A stretch of 64,000 nucleotides of DNA. It comes from Microbulbifer hydrolyticus (GTDB lineage: Bacteria; Pseudomonadota; Gammaproteobacteria; Pseudomonadales; Cellvibrionaceae). The notes under the pieces are model-generated. The model was not told the DNA's origin, ran no database searches, and worked only from the letters and a program-made list of their open reading frames with translations. Positions 2,494-40,331 of this stretch are shown here, piece by piece (the first letter of the stretch is position 1; each line of letters starts with the position of its first letter). Where the stretch lies: positions 2,679,501-2,743,500 of the forward strand of contig NZ_CP047491.1 in assembly GCF_009931115.1 (NCBI RefSeq), written 5' to 3'. Position numbers and translations under genes: made by a program.

Positions 2494-5229
2494 ATGAGCT
2501 CCATCCAGCTGGCCCAGATCCCGCATTTCGAAAAACCCCTGTTCTTCTTTGACCAGTCCCGTTTCCGACGCGACCTCAAGGCCGGTGAGCGGCCCACACT
2601 GGAAATATTCAAAGACGCCGTGGGCGCGGCCGATACCCATATGGCACGTCGCTTTCGCGAGGGTGAGGATGTACGCACCCTGGTCTATGAACGCGCCCTG
2701 TTTGTGGACTGCCTGCTGCATTACGCCTGGCACCAGTTTCAATGGCAGGACGACATCAGCCTGCTGGCGGTCGGCGGCTATGGCCGGGGCGAACTGCACC
2801 CCAAGTCCGATATCGATCTGCTGATCCTCAGCCGGACCAGGCCCGATGGCGACACGGTGGACAATATTGAGCGCCTGGTCGCCTTCCTCTGGGACCTGAA
2901 GCTTGATATCGGCCACTCCGTAAGAACCGTGGATCACTGTATCGAGATGGCGGCAGAGGACATCACCGTCGCCACCAACCTGATGGAGTGCCGTACGGTT
3001 GTGGGCAATCCGGCGCTGCACCAAGCGCTGGCCGAGCGCATGACGCCCGAGAACATCTGGCCGGCGGACAAGTTTTTCAGCGCCAAGTACGCGGAACAGG
3101 AGTCTCGCCACAGCAGGCAGCAGGGTGCGGAGTACAATCTGGAACCCAATATCAAGAATGCTCCCGGCGGACTGCGGGACATTCAGACCATCAACTGGGT
3201 AGCCAAACGTTACTTCAAGGTGCGTACCCTCAAGCAGCTACAGGGCAAGGGGTTCTTCACCGAAGAGGAGTTCGCCATATTGCAGTCCGGCGAGGACTTC
3301 CTGTGGCGTGTGCGCTATGGCCTGCACCTGCTGGCCGGGCGTCCCGAAGAGCGCCTGTTGTTCGACTACCAGCGAGAGCTGGCACGGGAATTCGGCTATA
3401 AGGACAACGACACCCACCTGGCGGTTGAGCAGTTCATGCACACCTACTACCGCATCGTGATGGCGCTGCGGGAACTGAACGACGTGATGCTGCAGTTCCT
3501 CGACGAGGTGATTCTGCAGCGGGGTAAACACCTGCCAGTCACCCCCATCAATGAGCGGTTCCAGCTGCGCGGCAACACGATTGAGGCGACCGTCACCCGC
3601 ACCTTTATCGAGCACCCGCCGGCACTGCTGGAAATTTTTGTGCTGATGGCCAATAACCCGGAAATCCAGGGCGTACGGGCCTCCACCATCCGCCTGATCC
3701 GCGAACACCGACACCTGATTGACGACCAGTTTCGTGCGGATCCGACCAACACGCGCCTGTTCATGCAGCTGCTGCGCAGCCCCCGCGGGCTCTCCACCCA
3801 GCTCACCCGCATGACCCGCTATGGCATCCTTGGTCGCTACCTGCCGGAATTCGGCCGCGTCACCGGGCAGATGCAGCACGACCTTTTCCATATCTACACC
3901 GTGGACGCCCACACCCTGCAGGTAGTGCGCAATATGCGCAGCTTCCGTGGCGAGGATGCCTGGGAAAAATTCCCACTCGCTGCCGAAATCCTGTCGCGCA
4001 TGCGCAAGCCGGAACTGCTGTACATCGCCGGCCTGTACCACGACATTGCAAAAGGACGCGGTGGCGACCACTCCAAACTCGGCGTCGTGGATGCCGATGC
4101 GTTCGGTCGACGTCACGGGCTCTCCGCACGGGATCGCCGCCTGGTCTGCTGGCTGGTGGAAAAACACCTGCTGATGAGTGCCGTATCCCAGAAGCAGGAC
4201 ATTTCCGACCCCGAAGTGGTCCACGCGTTTGCCGCCGAAGTGGGCGACCGCGAGCACCTGGATTACCTGTTTGCGTTAACCGTCGCCGACATCAATGCCA
4301 CCAACCCGGACCTGTGGAACAGCTGGCGTGCCAGCCTGATGCGCCAGCTCTACCAGCATACCCAGCGCGCCCTTCGCCGGGGACTGGAAAACCCCATCGA
4401 TCGCGACGAGATCTACATCGAAACCCAGGCGCAGGCGCGCAACATGCTTCGCGCTATGGGCCTGCCCAGCAATGCCGTCGAAGATATCTGGTCAGAAATG
4501 GGGGAAGACTACTTCGTCCGCGAGAGCGCCGACAACATCACCTGGCACACCGCTGCCATTTACCAGCTGCAAAAGGACCCGGAGCGCGACGAAGACAGCG
4601 ATACCGTGGTGCTGACCCGCAACTCCGGCCCCGGTGAACACGACGGTGCCACGGAAGTGTTCGTATATACACCGGACCGGGCCAACGTATTTGCGGCGGT
4701 GGTCACCGGCCTCGACATGCTGAACCTGAACATTCACGATGCGCGGCTTTACAGCTCCGCCGGCGGTTATACCCTGGACACCTTCTACGTGCTGGATGAG
4801 TCGGGGCAGCCGCTGCTGGACGAACCGCAACGCCTGGAGCAGATCCGCAACACCCTGCAACAGGAACTGAAACTGGTGGAGGACTACTCCAAGGTCATCA
4901 AGCGCCGCACTCCGCGACGCCTGAAAATGTTCCACCTGCCCAGCCAGGCCCATATATCCACCGAGCCGGAAGATACGTACAGCACACTGGAGATCACCAG
5001 TGCCGACCGACCTGGCCTGCTCGCACGAATCGCGCGGATTTTTATCACCCACGATCTGCGCCTGCACAACGCCAAAATTTCCACCCTCGGTGAGCGTGTC
5101 GAGGATATTTTCCATATCACCGATGCGGACGATCAGCCGCTCACCGATAAAACACTGATCGAAACCCTGGAACAGGCCATCTGCCAGGAACTGGATGCAC
5201 ACCAGGCAACGTTGCCACCACAACCGTGA
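2494..5229 (+). CDS. glnD: Bifunctional PII uridylyltransferase/uridylyl-removing enzyme
   Basis: GlnD senses glutamine and adds or removes UMP on the PII protein, controlling nitrogen assimilation. The 911-residue length is normal. The nucleotidyltransferase domain carries GGYGRGELHPKSDIDLLIL near residues 92-110. A PII-UTase linker and an HD domain with YHDIAKGRGGDH follow, and two ACT domains lie in the last 200 residues (VFVYTPDRANVFAAV and LEITSADRPGLLARIA). The map-glnD-dapC order is conserved in gammaproteobacteria. Confidence 0.98.
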   Translation: MSSIQLAQIPHFEKPLFFFDQSRFRRDLKAGERPTLEIFKDAVGAADTHMARRFREGEDVRTLVYERALFVDCLLHYAWHQFQWQDDISLLAVGGYGRGELHPKSDIDLLILSRTRPDGDTVDNIERLVAFLWDLKLDIGHSVRTVDHCIEMAAEDITVATNLMECRTVVGNPALHQALAERMTPENIWPADKFFSAKYAEQESRHSRQQGAEYNLEPNIKNAPGGLRDIQTINWVAKRYFKVRTLKQLQGKGFFTEEEFAILQSGEDFLWRVRYGLHLLAGRPEERLLFDYQRELAREFGYKDNDTHLAVEQFMHTYYRIVMALRELNDVMLQFLDEVILQRGKHLPVTPINERFQLRGNTIEATVTRTFIEHPPALLEIFVLMANNPEIQGVRASTIRLIREHRHLIDDQFRADPTNTRLFMQLLRSPRGLSTQLTRMTRYGILGRYLPEFGRVTGQMQHDLFHIYTVDAHTLQVVRNMRSFRGEDAWEKFPLAAEILSRMRKPELLYIAGLYHDIAKGRGGDHSKLGVVDADAFGRRHGLSARDRRLVCWLVEKHLLMSAVSQKQDISDPEVVHAFAAEVGDREHLDYLFALTVADINATNPDLWNSWRASLMRQLYQHTQRALRRGLENPIDRDEIYIETQAQARNMLRAMGLPSNAVEDIWSEMGEDYFVRESADNITWHTAAIYQLQKDPERDEDSDTVVLTRNSGPGEHDGATEVFVYTPDRANVFAAVVTGLDMLNLNIHDARLYSSAGGYTLDTFYVLDESGQPLLDEPQRLEQIRNTLQQELKLVEDYSKVIKRRTPRRLKMFHLPSQAHISTEPEDTYSTLEITSADRPGLLARIARIFITHDLRLHNAKISTLGERVEDIFHITDADDQPLTDKTLIETLEQAICQELDAHQATLPPQP

Positions 5230-35408: not shown

Positions 35409-35467
35409 ATTTCACCCTAACCCCGCCCCACTTCTCGCTAGCCGGCCGCGGAAATAACTTTCAAATA

Positions 35468-37132
35468 CTAGATCATACTCCACTGACCGGTGTACGCCGC
35501 GAATATAAATACGAGTAAATTGGTAGTGGCATGTGCTGTTATGGCATCTCCGACGTGCCGTGAACGCAGGCGTACATAGGCATAGATAAGCCCTGCAATG
35601 GTGCCCGCCACCCAGGCACCGTGCAGAGCGCCAAAGGCCAAAGATGAAACCAATACTCCAGTAACCGACCAGGGAAGCGCGCCATGCGTATAGTTGGGTG
35701 AGCGGCTGAGCTTACACAATAAATAGCCTCGAAATGCCAACTCTTCTGCGATTGGGACCGTAATTGCCGCCCCCAAAAACCTCAACGCCAGCCATAAGCC
35801 CGACCAAAGTTCAGGCGTGCCCCGCAGCATTTGCGAAAATGCCTGATCGGCTTCCACCCCAGTGTTGAAAAGCAACACAACCCAAATCACGGCCGCCCCT
35901 ACTCCAGCGCCAAGTGCTTGAAAGCTAGGACGATATGGTATCAGGCGCAAGACAGGCCAAAACCAGGCTAGCGTAACCAGTACGGCAATAACACGCACCG
36001 GATATAACCAAATAAATTCGGACGAAAACGCCGACGTCAGCAAATCTGCAGCCAGTAACACGATCAAGGGCATAAGCGCGGCGGTGGCCCGCGCGCCATT
36101 GGTACGCTCAAGAGGCTCTGCGGCTTTGCGCGCCTGCGGCACTGTTCCTGTGTCAGCCCGCATTACAAAGCGCCAGTGGCTTGCAAACCAAAGGAGGCCA
36201 AACGAGGTAAGGATAAATAAAATCCATCCAGCCTGAGAATGAAAACCTCCTATAGCGACGTCCGCCGACCAGTAATAACCCAGCGCGACCAAGACTGCGA
36301 TACGCACCACATTGAGCAGCCAGATAACCACTACACCCAGAGGAAACAGGACAAAGGCTCGAGGGAAGCGAAATTCTTTGCGGTTGAGATACAGATACAA
36401 GGCCAGAAAAGCAGAAATTAATCCGACACCTTCATAACCGGAGCATGCCGGCGCCACACTGACAAGAAAGTCACCCATGCCGAGTACTTTCTGACTCGGC
36501 TCGACCACCACCAGCTGGGGATTAAGCTGCGCCAGTAGATTGGAAGAGAAAACAAACGTTAAAGTGCTGAGTGGCCCCCAAAGACTGCCCGCCATTACAG
36601 TGAAAAGCCAAATCGCTGCCGTGACCAGGGCAGCAACAACAATAGGCTTCCGATAACGTACTGTTGTCCGCAACCAGAATCGTATAGGTGCAATCATCAG
36701 TAGCCAGCACACCAAACTTGTAATCAGCGCACCAAACCAGAACAAGTATGGAAGTATGCCGAGTTGGCCAGCCTCACCAGCGAACTCAAAAATCAGGAGT
36801 GAACTCTGCAGGAGAACCCAATAACTTAACAGCTGTGGCAGCAAGTAGACGCCAACACGCCTGATATCCGCTTCAAGCCTTACACTGTGTAACACCGAGC
36901 GCAGTTCTCGCTTAAGCAGGAGACACAATAGCGCCACATACAAAACGGCGATTTTCGCCGCCTTCCCGAGGTACCCAAAAAGTACTCGCCACCCATCGGT
37001 GGCGCCCTCCATTACCAGGGTATAGGCATCGAAACGCTGACTGATATAAAGCAGCTGTAGTACCAGTAGAAACGCAACGCCCAGCGGAAAGATCGCCCTG
37101 AAATGCTTAAGCAAAAGGCATTCCCTACCCAA
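35468..37132 (-). CDS. xrtE: Exosortase E/CAAX-type protease fusion (VPEID-CTERM system)
   Basis: The 554-residue protein fuses two membrane enzymes. Residues about 1-320 are an exosortase with its catalytic triad: Cys230 in PACSGYEG, Arg277 in LNVVRI and His298 in GGFHSQAG. Residues about 345-554 are a CPBP (CAAX-type) intramembrane protease with EELAFRGY (E463, E464, R468), His504 in GALHGAWVAG, and His534/Asn538. This is the known exosortase E fusion type. Its only visible target is the adjacent VPEID-CTERM protein at 37215-37490. The gene starts at a TTG codon. It presumably cleaves or anchors the target at the inner membrane. Confidence 0.93.
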   Translation of the reverse strand: MGRECLLLKHFRAIFPLGVAFLLVLQLLYISQRFDAYTLVMEGATDGWRVLFGYLGKAAKIAVLYVALLCLLLKRELRSVLHSVRLEADIRRVGVYLLPQLLSYWVLLQSSLLIFEFAGEAGQLGILPYLFWFGALITSLVCWLLMIAPIRFWLRTTVRYRKPIVVAALVTAAIWLFTVMAGSLWGPLSTLTFVFSSNLLAQLNPQLVVVEPSQKVLGMGDFLVSVAPACSGYEGVGLISAFLALYLYLNRKEFRFPRAFVLFPLGVVVIWLLNVVRIAVLVALGYYWSADVAIGGFHSQAGWILFILTSFGLLWFASHWRFVMRADTGTVPQARKAAEPLERTNGARATAALMPLIVLLAADLLTSAFSSEFIWLYPVRVIAVLVTLAWFWPVLRLIPYRPSFQALGAGVGAAVIWVVLLFNTGVEADQAFSQMLRGTPELWSGLWLALRFLGAAITVPIAEELAFRGYLLCKLSRSPNYTHGALPWSVTGVLVSSLAFGALHGAWVAGTIAGLIYAYVRLRSRHVGDAITAHATTNLLVFIFAAYTGQWSMI

Positions 37133-37156
37133 GTGATATAAAGCTATATTTTCGTC

Positions 37157-37189
37157 AAAAAAAACCCCGGCCGTGAAAGCCGGGGTTTT
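37157..37189 (-). terminator. Terminator between the VPEID-CTERM gene and xrtE
   Basis: On the minus strand a perfect AACCCCGGC stem pairs with GCCGGGGTT and runs into eight T residues. It lies after the VPEID-CTERM stop and just before xrtE. It would let the substrate be made in excess over the sorting enzyme. Confidence 0.85.
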
Positions 37190-37214
37190 GACATTCCTCG
37201 ATTAAGCCTCCAGA

Positions 37215-37490
37215 TTATTTGGAGGAGCGTCTTTCACGACGAACAGCGACCAGTCCCGCCAGCAGGGCGAATGCGATGCCTGCACCCGCAGTGTCAATTT
37301 CAGGAACAGAGTGCGCTTCTTTAGCACCCCCATGCTTTACACTGCCTTTACGCTCATTACCGCCTTCACGCTTGTGATCAAGATGCTGTTTCTTATCACC
37401 ATCATCATGGGCACTGCGTTTGCCGTCAGCAAATGCCATAGGTGATGCAAGCAACAACAAGGCAAGACTGGCAAAAATATACTTTTTCAT
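37215..37490 (-). CDS. VPEID-CTERM sorting domain protein (exosortase E substrate)
   Basis: The 91-residue protein has a signal peptide (1-21, MKKYIFASLALLLLASPMAF then A). A 40-residue hydrophilic core rich in Lys, His, Asp and Gly follows, with no Cys and no predicted fold. The C-terminal signal has VPEID at 62-66, a hydrophobic helix at about 68-83 and a basic end (RRERRSSK). This tripartite signal defines the targets of exosortase E. The gene is immediately upstream of xrtE. The function of the mature 40-residue peptide is unknown. Confidence 0.92.
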   Translation of the reverse strand: MKKYIFASLALLLLASPMAFADGKRSAHDDGDKKQHLDHKREGGNERKGSVKHGGAKEAHSVPEIDTAGAGIAFALLAGLVAVRRERRSSK

Positions 37491-37565
37491 TAATTTTTCC
37501 CTTTAAATACTGCTGTTTTTCAGCGAGTACCCCTTTAAGTTCAGCTCCATGAACCGGATTATTGC

Positions 37566-37586
37566 CCACTTGGATAAACCAAGTGG
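37566..37586. promoter_or_regulatory. Perfect 8-bp dyad upstream of the VPEID-CTERM gene
   Basis: CCACTTGG, ATAAA, CCAAGTGG forms a perfect inverted repeat about 75 nt upstream of the VPEID-CTERM start. There is no T-run, so an operator is as likely as a terminator. No binding protein is known. Confidence 0.4.
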
Positions 37587-37904
37587 CATGCCACCACGAA
37601 ATAAGCTATTTAAACGATGACTTGGAGAACATCTCCCCATCAACAACAGTAACCAGCGACATACTGACAAGAAGTGGGGAAGCCAGAGGAAGGTTTACAG
37701 CCATTGCGTCCGGTTCGATTTTATCGCCACACACGGCCTGAACCGGATTGATAGCGTGACAGAGATCCAAACCCAAATGTGACGCAGGCCCACTTTTTTG
37801 GCGTTTAGCAAGAGTAAACGCCATTTCCACCCGGGTCTAGTAGCTATTCCCGCCAGATATCCAGCAATCAAACTTAATGACACCGAATTCAACGCGAGTT
37901 AATA

Positions 37905-38045
37905 AAATCTCGCCCGGGAACTTCCTGGATCCACTCAAATTTTCGCCATCGGCTTACTCGTTAACAGTGTTGCCGATGATTATGCGCTTGGCTTCCGGCT
38001 CGTCGACGTCGGTGAGACCCGAGAGGAACGGAGCCCGTAGCAGAA
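37905..38045 (-). pseudogene. Fossil fragment of guaA
   Basis: About 140 nt resembles guaA 40905-41045 in the same orientation, including GCGCTTGGCTTCCGG and GAGAGGAAC blocks. It corresponds to about residues 288-335 of GuaA. The flanks do not match and the frame is broken by substitutions, so this is a decayed partial copy. It lies about 2.9 kb from the intact gene, with the chitinase between them. The rest of the 37.5-38.45 kb region shows only short, non-protein-like frames. Confidence 0.75.
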
Positions 38046-38452
38046 CAAAAACCCACATAAAATAATAATGTCGCAAATATCAACCAAACTTACACATAAA
38101 AAAAGAACAAATACCTATCCGCCACTGGAATCAAATGACAATCGGGCGTATCTTCGACAACGTACAAATGACAACGCTATCATTTTCTGGTGACAGCGCT
38201 GTCCATTGCCGTCGGTGACTTGCGTGGCATCTGCCGCGACAGCACGGGGAGAGGTCGCCGCAGTTTCCTGCCGGCCACCGGCACAACAATTTGTACATTC
38301 ATGTGGACTATCTCGCTGTAGCAGTAATAGAGAAAGCAACAGTGAGGTCGCGGCGGGGGATTCGCGGGGTTTGCGCATTGATTCGCCGTTGACCTTTTCG
38401 GTTTCAAACCAAGATGTTTCAAACCAGAATCACGGTGAACAAGGTGAAAAAA

Positions 38453-40168
<1,716 letters not shown>

Positions 40169-40183
40169 TTTGAAATGAAGTAA

Positions 40184-40213
40184 TGCTCTGCGGGCCTTGT
40201 GGCCCGCAGAGCA
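40184..40213 (+). terminator. Strong hairpin after the chitinase gene
   Basis: A perfect 13-bp stem (TGCTCTGCGGGCC with GGCCCGCAGAGCA) surrounds a 4-nt loop, 16 nt after the stop codon. Only a weak T-tract follows. It may stabilise the 3' end or assist the stronger terminator at 40250. Confidence 0.6.
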
Positions 40214-40249
40214 GACTGTTTCAAGAGAAGCTGCAATAGCTTGAAAACA

Positions 40250-40276
40250 AAAACCCAGCGCAAGCGCTGGGTTTTT
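40250..40276. terminator. Bidirectional terminator between the chitinase gene and guaA
   Basis: AACCCAGCGCAAGCGCTGGGTT is self-complementary with T and A runs on both sides. It serves the convergent chitinase (plus) and guaA (minus) genes. Confidence 0.85.
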
Positions 40277-40331
40277 TGATTAGCGGATTTTGAATTCCAG
40301 GCGATCAATCGCGCCCGTAATTCTCACCCGG

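Follow-up and report, generated by a model that had tools for sequence, protein, structure and literature searches.

EpsH-like proteins fused to CAAX-protease-like domains were recorded in four cases by Haft et al. in 2006, who proposed a sortase-like cleavage at the periplasmic face; in its available portion, that paper does not describe a dedicated small target for these fusions (PMC1569441). The exosortase E/VPEID-CTERM system, defined by the models TIGR04162 and TIGR04161, is like the locus reported here in the order of the fusion, its length, its catalytic residues and the presence of an adjacent tailed protein, but the target of our locus falls below the TIGR04161 cut-off. No text on VPEID-CTERM or exosortase E was found in the open literature that we searched, whose coverage did not extend to Haft 2012. 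By analogy, the nearest functional parallel is the MrtJ/JDVT-CTERM unit together with MrtX. According to the accessible text on these enzymes, MrtX is a stand-alone CPBP protease and a tested C-terminal sorting enzyme that cleaves a C-terminal tail, and MrtJ/JDVT-CTERM is likewise a two-gene unit, of a sorting enzyme and a single target, that occurs sporadically in beta- and gammaproteobacteria (PMC11980579). Unlike XrtE, the enzyme described below, both lack an exosortase half, and the MYXO-CTERM tail of MrtX carries an invariant, presumably lipidated Cys, whereas the tail studied here has no Cys (same text, PMC11980579). Archaeosortase A/PGF-CTERM is described there as a Cys-active membrane enzyme with a tripartite tail, in which C-terminal processing is followed by lipid attachment (PMC11980579). 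That system is archaeal, unlike our pair. To our knowledge, archaeosortase A has no CPBP half.

A fused exosortase E beside a small tailed protein

The window, that is, the whole stretch of 64,000 nucleotides analysed from Microbulbifer hydrolyticus (contig NZ_CP047491.1), encodes the following enzyme:

35468..37132, reverse strand: xrtE, exosortase E/CPBP protease fusion, 554 aa from the upstream TTG (open reading frame with Pfam/NCBIfam matches)
36179..36943, reverse strand: exosortase domain, residues 64-318, with Cys230, Arg277 and His298 (PF09721)
35513..35794, reverse strand: CPBP/Rce1-like glutamic intramembrane protease domain, residues 447-540 (PF02517)
within 35513..35794, reverse strand: CPBP domain residues Glu463, Glu464, Arg468, His504, His534 and Asn538 (conservation)

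A first-pass annotation of this DNA had proposed a 554-residue exosortase/CPBP fusion, and the domain models agree: PF09721 and PF02517 were both above their Pfam cut-offs, and XrtE scored 255.1 bits against TIGR04162 (exo_VPEID; curated cut-off 150), 105 bits against TIGR03008 (cut-off 81.05) and 66.3 bits against TIGR04178 (cut-off 23). Scores were far lower with the XrtA model TIGR03109 (32 bits, cut-off 208) and the MrtJ model NF033192 (32.7 bits, cut-off 75), and the CPBP domain of XrtE is fused to an exosortase. The residues singled out by the annotation, Cys230, Arg277, His298 and Glu463, were correctly placed and are invariant among 70 aligned fusion proteins, the window's included, as are Glu464, Arg468, His504 and Asn538; His534 is nearly so. 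The C-terminal domain thus carries both EExxxR and HxxxN. By model score and residues, XrtE is a member of exosortase E. In the PDB, a structure search with the whole XrtE model gave no match at E <= 0.001 and a sequence search no match at E <= 1. Translation probably starts at the TTG of codon 7 (37114, 548 aa), and the first six codons are doubtful, because an in-frame TGA lies just upstream of the start of the M. aggregans orthologue.

The neighbouring gene encodes the presumed target:

37215..37490, reverse strand: target, 91-aa precursor (open reading frame; context and tail profile A3)
37428-37490, reverse strand: predicted signal peptide (simple rule)
37308-37427, reverse strand: body, between the predicted signal peptide and the tail
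37218-37307, reverse strand: VPEID tail (tail profile A3)

This reading frame corresponds to the 91-residue protein that had been expected from the sequence, with a predicted N-terminal signal peptide (called, as for all targets here, by a simple purpose-made rule and not by SignalP) and a tripartite C-terminus of VPEID, a helix and RRERRSSK. Its body comprises 40 residues without Cys and, with the V of VPEID counted, is 37% K+H+R and 20% D+E, matching the charged, Cys-free segment of about 40 residues in the earlier description. Against TIGR04161 the target scored 11.6 bits, or 13.7 bits in the whole-genome search, with a curated cut-off of 33, and it was not among the 28 of 36 targets scanned that this model matched at E <= 0.1. 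The target is identified by its context and a purpose-built tail profile, not by TIGR04161. This profile derives from alignment A3 of 30 tails in which the focal tail is one of the rows, so the E-values of the focal tail and of most tails of neighbouring targets arise by construction; the tail of the Microbulbifer genome G1104 and the extra places in genomes G320, G234, G173 and G098 are independent of A3. The invariance of PE in the aligned tails is a selection artefact, since tails were chosen by PE.

The pair is self-contained and co-occurs in the genus

The host genome is a single contig of 4.21 Mb. Profile A3 gave E 2.2e-14 at the focal place (a row of the profile) and only 0.89 at the next match, and the TIGR04178 search found a single exosortase above cut-off. 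A DNA pattern coding for VPEID occurred at three places, and its reversed control at one; two of the three were rejected as targets, as only the focal place sits at a C-terminus. With TIGR04161, the genome gave three weak matches, of which the focal one ranked third; the two outscoring it were also set aside, being no C-terminal tails of small exported proteins and being missed by A3. The first-pass annotation had called the pair self-contained, with one target, and had asked for a genome-wide search for other VPEID-CTERM proteins; that search detected no further target, and one exosortase and one target are what is detectable in the whole genome. The claim of a single target is right for this genome and fails for the family, as the six tailed places of one Ketobacter genome show (see below).

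XrtE was found in three of 48 Microbulbifer genomes, and the target in the same three, one copy each, with none in the other 45. Two of the three tails are in A3, and the third (G1104) is absent from it. If the two genes were unrelated, the coincidence would have a chance of 1 in 17,296, an arithmetic figure that ignores kinship among genomes; the co-occurrence of enzyme and target in the genus is not chance. In wider genome samples XrtE is sporadic, passing the cut-off in 6/390 genomes of the order sample, 1/369 of the class sample and 4/398 of the phylum sample, the own genome counted each time.

Among the three Microbulbifer targets, 14-17 of 21 signal-peptide positions and 26-27 of 30 tail positions are identical, but only 14/40, 17/40 and 16/42 in gapped alignments of the bodies. 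The bodies retain their character (Gly, His, Lys, Arg and Asp, no Cys) and not their sequence. Such conservation would suit a disordered segment, rich in His, that is kept at the cell surface and may bind metal or matrix. As far as the available text goes, ZepA, a zinc-binding PEP-CTERM exoprotein, is a distant precedent (PMC10957091).

The tail is carried by larger proteins in relatives

Further matches to A3 turned up in other carriers: G234, a Ketobacter genome, has six, and G173, G098 and G320 have additional ones. Ten such extra loci, counted from the first start codon, encode six proteins of 213-285 aa and four of 89-137 aa. The presence of the same tail on the larger proteins argues that it is a portable, transferable signal and that XrtE can serve several substrates, and it looks like sorting or anchoring. 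In G320 no target was seen beside xrtE, and two targets lie elsewhere, far from it, which makes the link between enzyme and target functional and not only positional.

These observations bear on the proposal, made with the first description of the pair, that two proteolytic activities for one small substrate point to release of a peptide. As argued there, the step does not hold: the fusion is a family trait, the number of detectable targets that goes with it ranges from none through one to several, and the tail is not confined to small proteins.

Small targets accompany the fusion in several phyla

To survey the family, contigs were scanned with alignment A1, which gave 335 stretches, of which 234 were relatives and 80 loci (L055-L134) were kept; these were selected by A1 and not each by TIGR04162, and the 65 with complete reading frames of fitting length were included in the alignment that shows both catalytic sets to be invariant. 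For the tail HMM, 74 tails from 57 loci served as seeds; they came from reading frames of <=170 aa near xrtE and on its strand, in which PE[ILVMF] is followed by a hydrophobic stretch and a basic end. The HMM was run on all six-frame reading frames of every locus, and matches were counted at E <= 0.05; seeds match by construction.

A tailed protein was found in 59 of the 80 loci, across several phyla, and it was small in all but one locus. The match lay upstream on the same strand and within 2 kb in 55 of the 59, and 73 of 81 target reading frames, most of them HMM seeds, were so placed (<=2 kb from xrtE). Rhodobacteraceae-type loci (L052 and L053, enzymes of 590-747 bits) differ in that the target is convergent, tail-to-tail with xrtE, whereas the focal target is upstream on the same strand. 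The HMM found no target in 21 of the 80 loci, of which L059, L087, L092 and L133 have fewer than 700 bases upstream; a weak tail match in L122, at E 0.29, was not counted. In the control set, none of 32 loci lacking both the fusion and the window's target gave a tail match at E <= 1.

Body length was predicted for 82 parsed targets, namely the window's, those of L052 (missed by the HMM and added by motif) and L053, and 79 from the 80 loci. From the end of the signal peptide to PE, the median was 11 residues, with 13/82 bodies of <=5, 38/82 of <=10 and 50/82 of <=15 residues. Half of the precursors (41/82) had <=60 residues, and the family includes substrates of 50-55 residues. A bound that is independent of the guessed start or signal peptide, the distance from the preceding in-frame stop to PE, was <=30 codons in 10 of 84 reading frames and <=40 in 22. 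Only the two targets of L084 (233 and 236 aa) exceed 113 residues among those parsed. L084, a fusion locus from a planctomycete, encodes them near xrtE at 1519-2286 and 4473-5183, with PEI tails and in place of a tiny target. Two targets of about 42 residues (L085:56-196 and L091:5300-5440) have no clear signal peptide and consist of fourteen residues followed by the sorting tail; they were left out of the body lengths because their signal peptide could not be parsed. Two or more targets occur in 14 of 60 loci, and in many of these, judged by eye, the tails are alike and the bodies vary.

In a quick tree of XrtE with one support value and some long branches, short bodies fall in Acidobacteriota, Planctomycetota, Alphaproteobacteria and an assemblage that includes Methylococcaceae. 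The window's XrtE groups mainly with gammaproteobacterial sequences whose targets have bodies of 36-66 residues, and stands next to L061 (5-11). We did not meet in print a family-wide pairing of the enzyme with an adjacent, nearly empty substrate; this is no claim that the pattern is unpublished.

The short bodies reopen peptide release on other grounds. Signal peptidase and XrtE might together free a short extracellular peptide acting as a signal, in the matrix or in metal binding, and the family-wide median of 11, the multi-target loci with varying bodies and the charged, His-rich focal body all speak for this, as does the processing of peptide pheromones by CPBP enzymes elsewhere. We nevertheless consider it unlikely: other carriers bear the same tail on proteins of 213-285 aa, bodies of 3-6 residues would hardly suit peptides with a specific message, and the three Microbulbifer bodies are poorly alignable, unlike a signal read by a receptor. 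The usual position of the target just upstream of xrtE, and the fact that the shortest targets amount to roughly two hydrophobic segments and a tail (<=30 residues from stop to PE in 10/84 frames), would also be compatible with a small membrane subunit or regulator of XrtE, whose helix works uncut and which is not cargo. This is quite improbable in our judgement, as tandem paralogues and the same tail on larger proteins better fit a recognition signal, and the terminator described below suggests unequal amounts of the two proteins.

Glycan genes do not recur beside the fusion

Two genes on each side of the fusion were compared through 107 of 150 listed proteins from 40 of the 80 loci, proteins above about 800 aa and many short or overlapping reading frames being left out. 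Among the families listed (25 of 131), none accounted for more than 4 of the 107 neighbours. Glycosyltransferases were 4/107, and a recurrent glycan-gene context was absent; a conserved neighbour that could represent an acceptor pathway was looked for among these genes and not seen. Classical exopolysaccharide-linked sorting of the PEP-CTERM/XrtA type, with a degenerate tail, would share the superfamily model (TIGR04178), and a second-copy locus (L048) has glycosyltransferase-like neighbours by eye. The absence of recurrent glycan genes, the 32 bits against the XrtA cut-off of 208 and a focal tail that reads VPEID and not PEP already disfavour this explanation, which is highly improbable.

Terminator, leader and genomic slot

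Two further elements accompany the target gene:

37157..37189, reverse strand: intrinsic terminator between target and xrtE (folding; recurs in other loci)
37491..37550, reverse strand: 5' leader with predicted hairpin (conserved in three Microbulbifer carriers)

A terminator between the genes had been noted from the sequence, and folding and comparison uphold it. The hairpin folds at -23.1 kcal/mol, compared with a shuffle mean of -12.8 (z -3.6), and inspection by eye shows one in this position in each of the three Microbulbifer carriers. Of 52 target-xrtE gaps, 21 contain a terminator-like hairpin, where mononucleotide shuffles would give 4.8. It was not listed by a simple consensus terminator scan, supposedly because A-T pairs use up the T run, and Rfam gave four weak matches over the region, all below the gathering score. 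The leader extends for about 55 bases up to the ATG of the target gene and shows conservation across the three species. Its predicted fold is a hairpin of 11 pairs, in which the changes are one-sided only and one pair is broken in one species; 37491-37550 had no Rfam family at the gathering score. RpoN-type -24/-12 sites precede 14 of 82 targets against 0.6 expected from mononucleotide shuffles, and none was found at the focal target. An upstream DNA motif has been reported for proteobacterial PEP-CTERM genes, in the portion available of Haft 2006 (PMC1569441).

The pair is flanked by a TPR gene and guaA in each of the three Microbulbifer carriers. Comparison of 12 stretches showed that this interval (35409-40331 in the window) is a variable slot in the genus, with gene content differing among species, and guaA is a known island site. 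In the window, a GH18 chitinase with CBM5/12 and poly-serine linkers adjoins the pair (38414-40168, forward strand). A 93% identical chitinase occupies the same slot in L208, where xrtE is absent. Short copies resembling the 3' end of guaA occur in L198, L203 and L208, and an integrase-like gene was seen by eye in the interval of L197. The window's XrtE is 63-65% identical to the two other Microbulbifer copies, and the neighbouring TPR gene 58-60%; because these values are alike, descent in place with many losses is equally likely as a mobile-island origin, and we do not claim a recent transfer of this xrtE copy.

Predicted topology and a proposed processing module

The AlphaFold model of XrtE has a mean pLDDT of 91.9 and a pTM of 0.86. 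Mean K+R over the 70 sequences alternates between 2.1-3.5 in putative inner loops and 0.1-1.0 in outer ones, and the 28-residue outer segment holding Cys230 averages 1.7 K+R and 3.5 acidic residues. On the assumption that helix 185-203 does not cross the membrane, the model and the loop charges would place Cys230, Arg277 and His298 near the outer face, and Glu463/Glu464 with His534/Asn538 in the inner half of their helices. MrtX-type proteins of four Myxococcota genomes appear, by loop charges judged by eye, to have the same CPBP orientation. A strict opposite-side model, in which the CPBP half acts on the cytoplasmic stub alone, was toned down, since MrtX, with an apparently like orientation, cleaves a tail; the CPBP half of XrtE could thus cleave the tail directly as well as the stub.

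Our preferred reading, to which we give a probability of roughly two in three, is that the pair is a dedicated two-gene C-terminal processing module of the known fused-exosortase family. The target would be exported by Sec and lose its signal peptide, and the tail helix would hold it in the inner membrane, VPEID lying on the outer and RRERR on the inner side. The exosortase half, its Cys-Arg-His site predicted to face out, may then cut at or near VPEID and transfer the body, 40 residues that are rich in His, Lys and Asp and presumably disordered, to a lipid or glycan acceptor so that it is displayed at the surface. The CPBP half, with its Glu/His site predicted in the inner membrane half, may remove the leftover helix, or cut first, like the myxosortase MrtX. 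The terminator behind the target would provide many substrates per enzyme. In favour of the processing module are the TIGR04162 score, the invariant catalytic residues, the co-occurrence in the genus, the many tailed loci, the control loci free of tail matches, the distant targets of G320, the portable tail, a consistent topology and the precedent of MrtX as a tested sorting protease. It is weakened by the 21/80 loci without a target, by the lack of glycan-gene context and by the target's score below the TIGR04161 cut-off, and bodies of <=11 residues in at least half of the parsed targets are odd for display proteins.

A wider and doubtful idea follows the short bodies further. In several phyla, fused exosortase E might mainly make minimal peptides and attach or free them, the signal peptide leading nearly straight into the sorting tail. 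The mature product would then often have 3-15 residues, function might reside in the added moiety and not in the peptide, and the polyampholyte of 40 residues in the focal target would be an enlarged, His-rich form of such a tag. The short bodies elsewhere in the family also make peptide release more worth testing than the first-pass annotation could know.

We therefore regard the locus as a known kind of system in compact form, with minimal cargo as a notable trait of the family. With one enzyme and one 91-residue substrate, and no other exosortase or tailed protein detected by the profiles, every product would be traceable by mass spectrometry and every defect assignable to one substrate, so that this two-gene unit of a marine bacterium may offer an unusually small system for learning what exosortases do.
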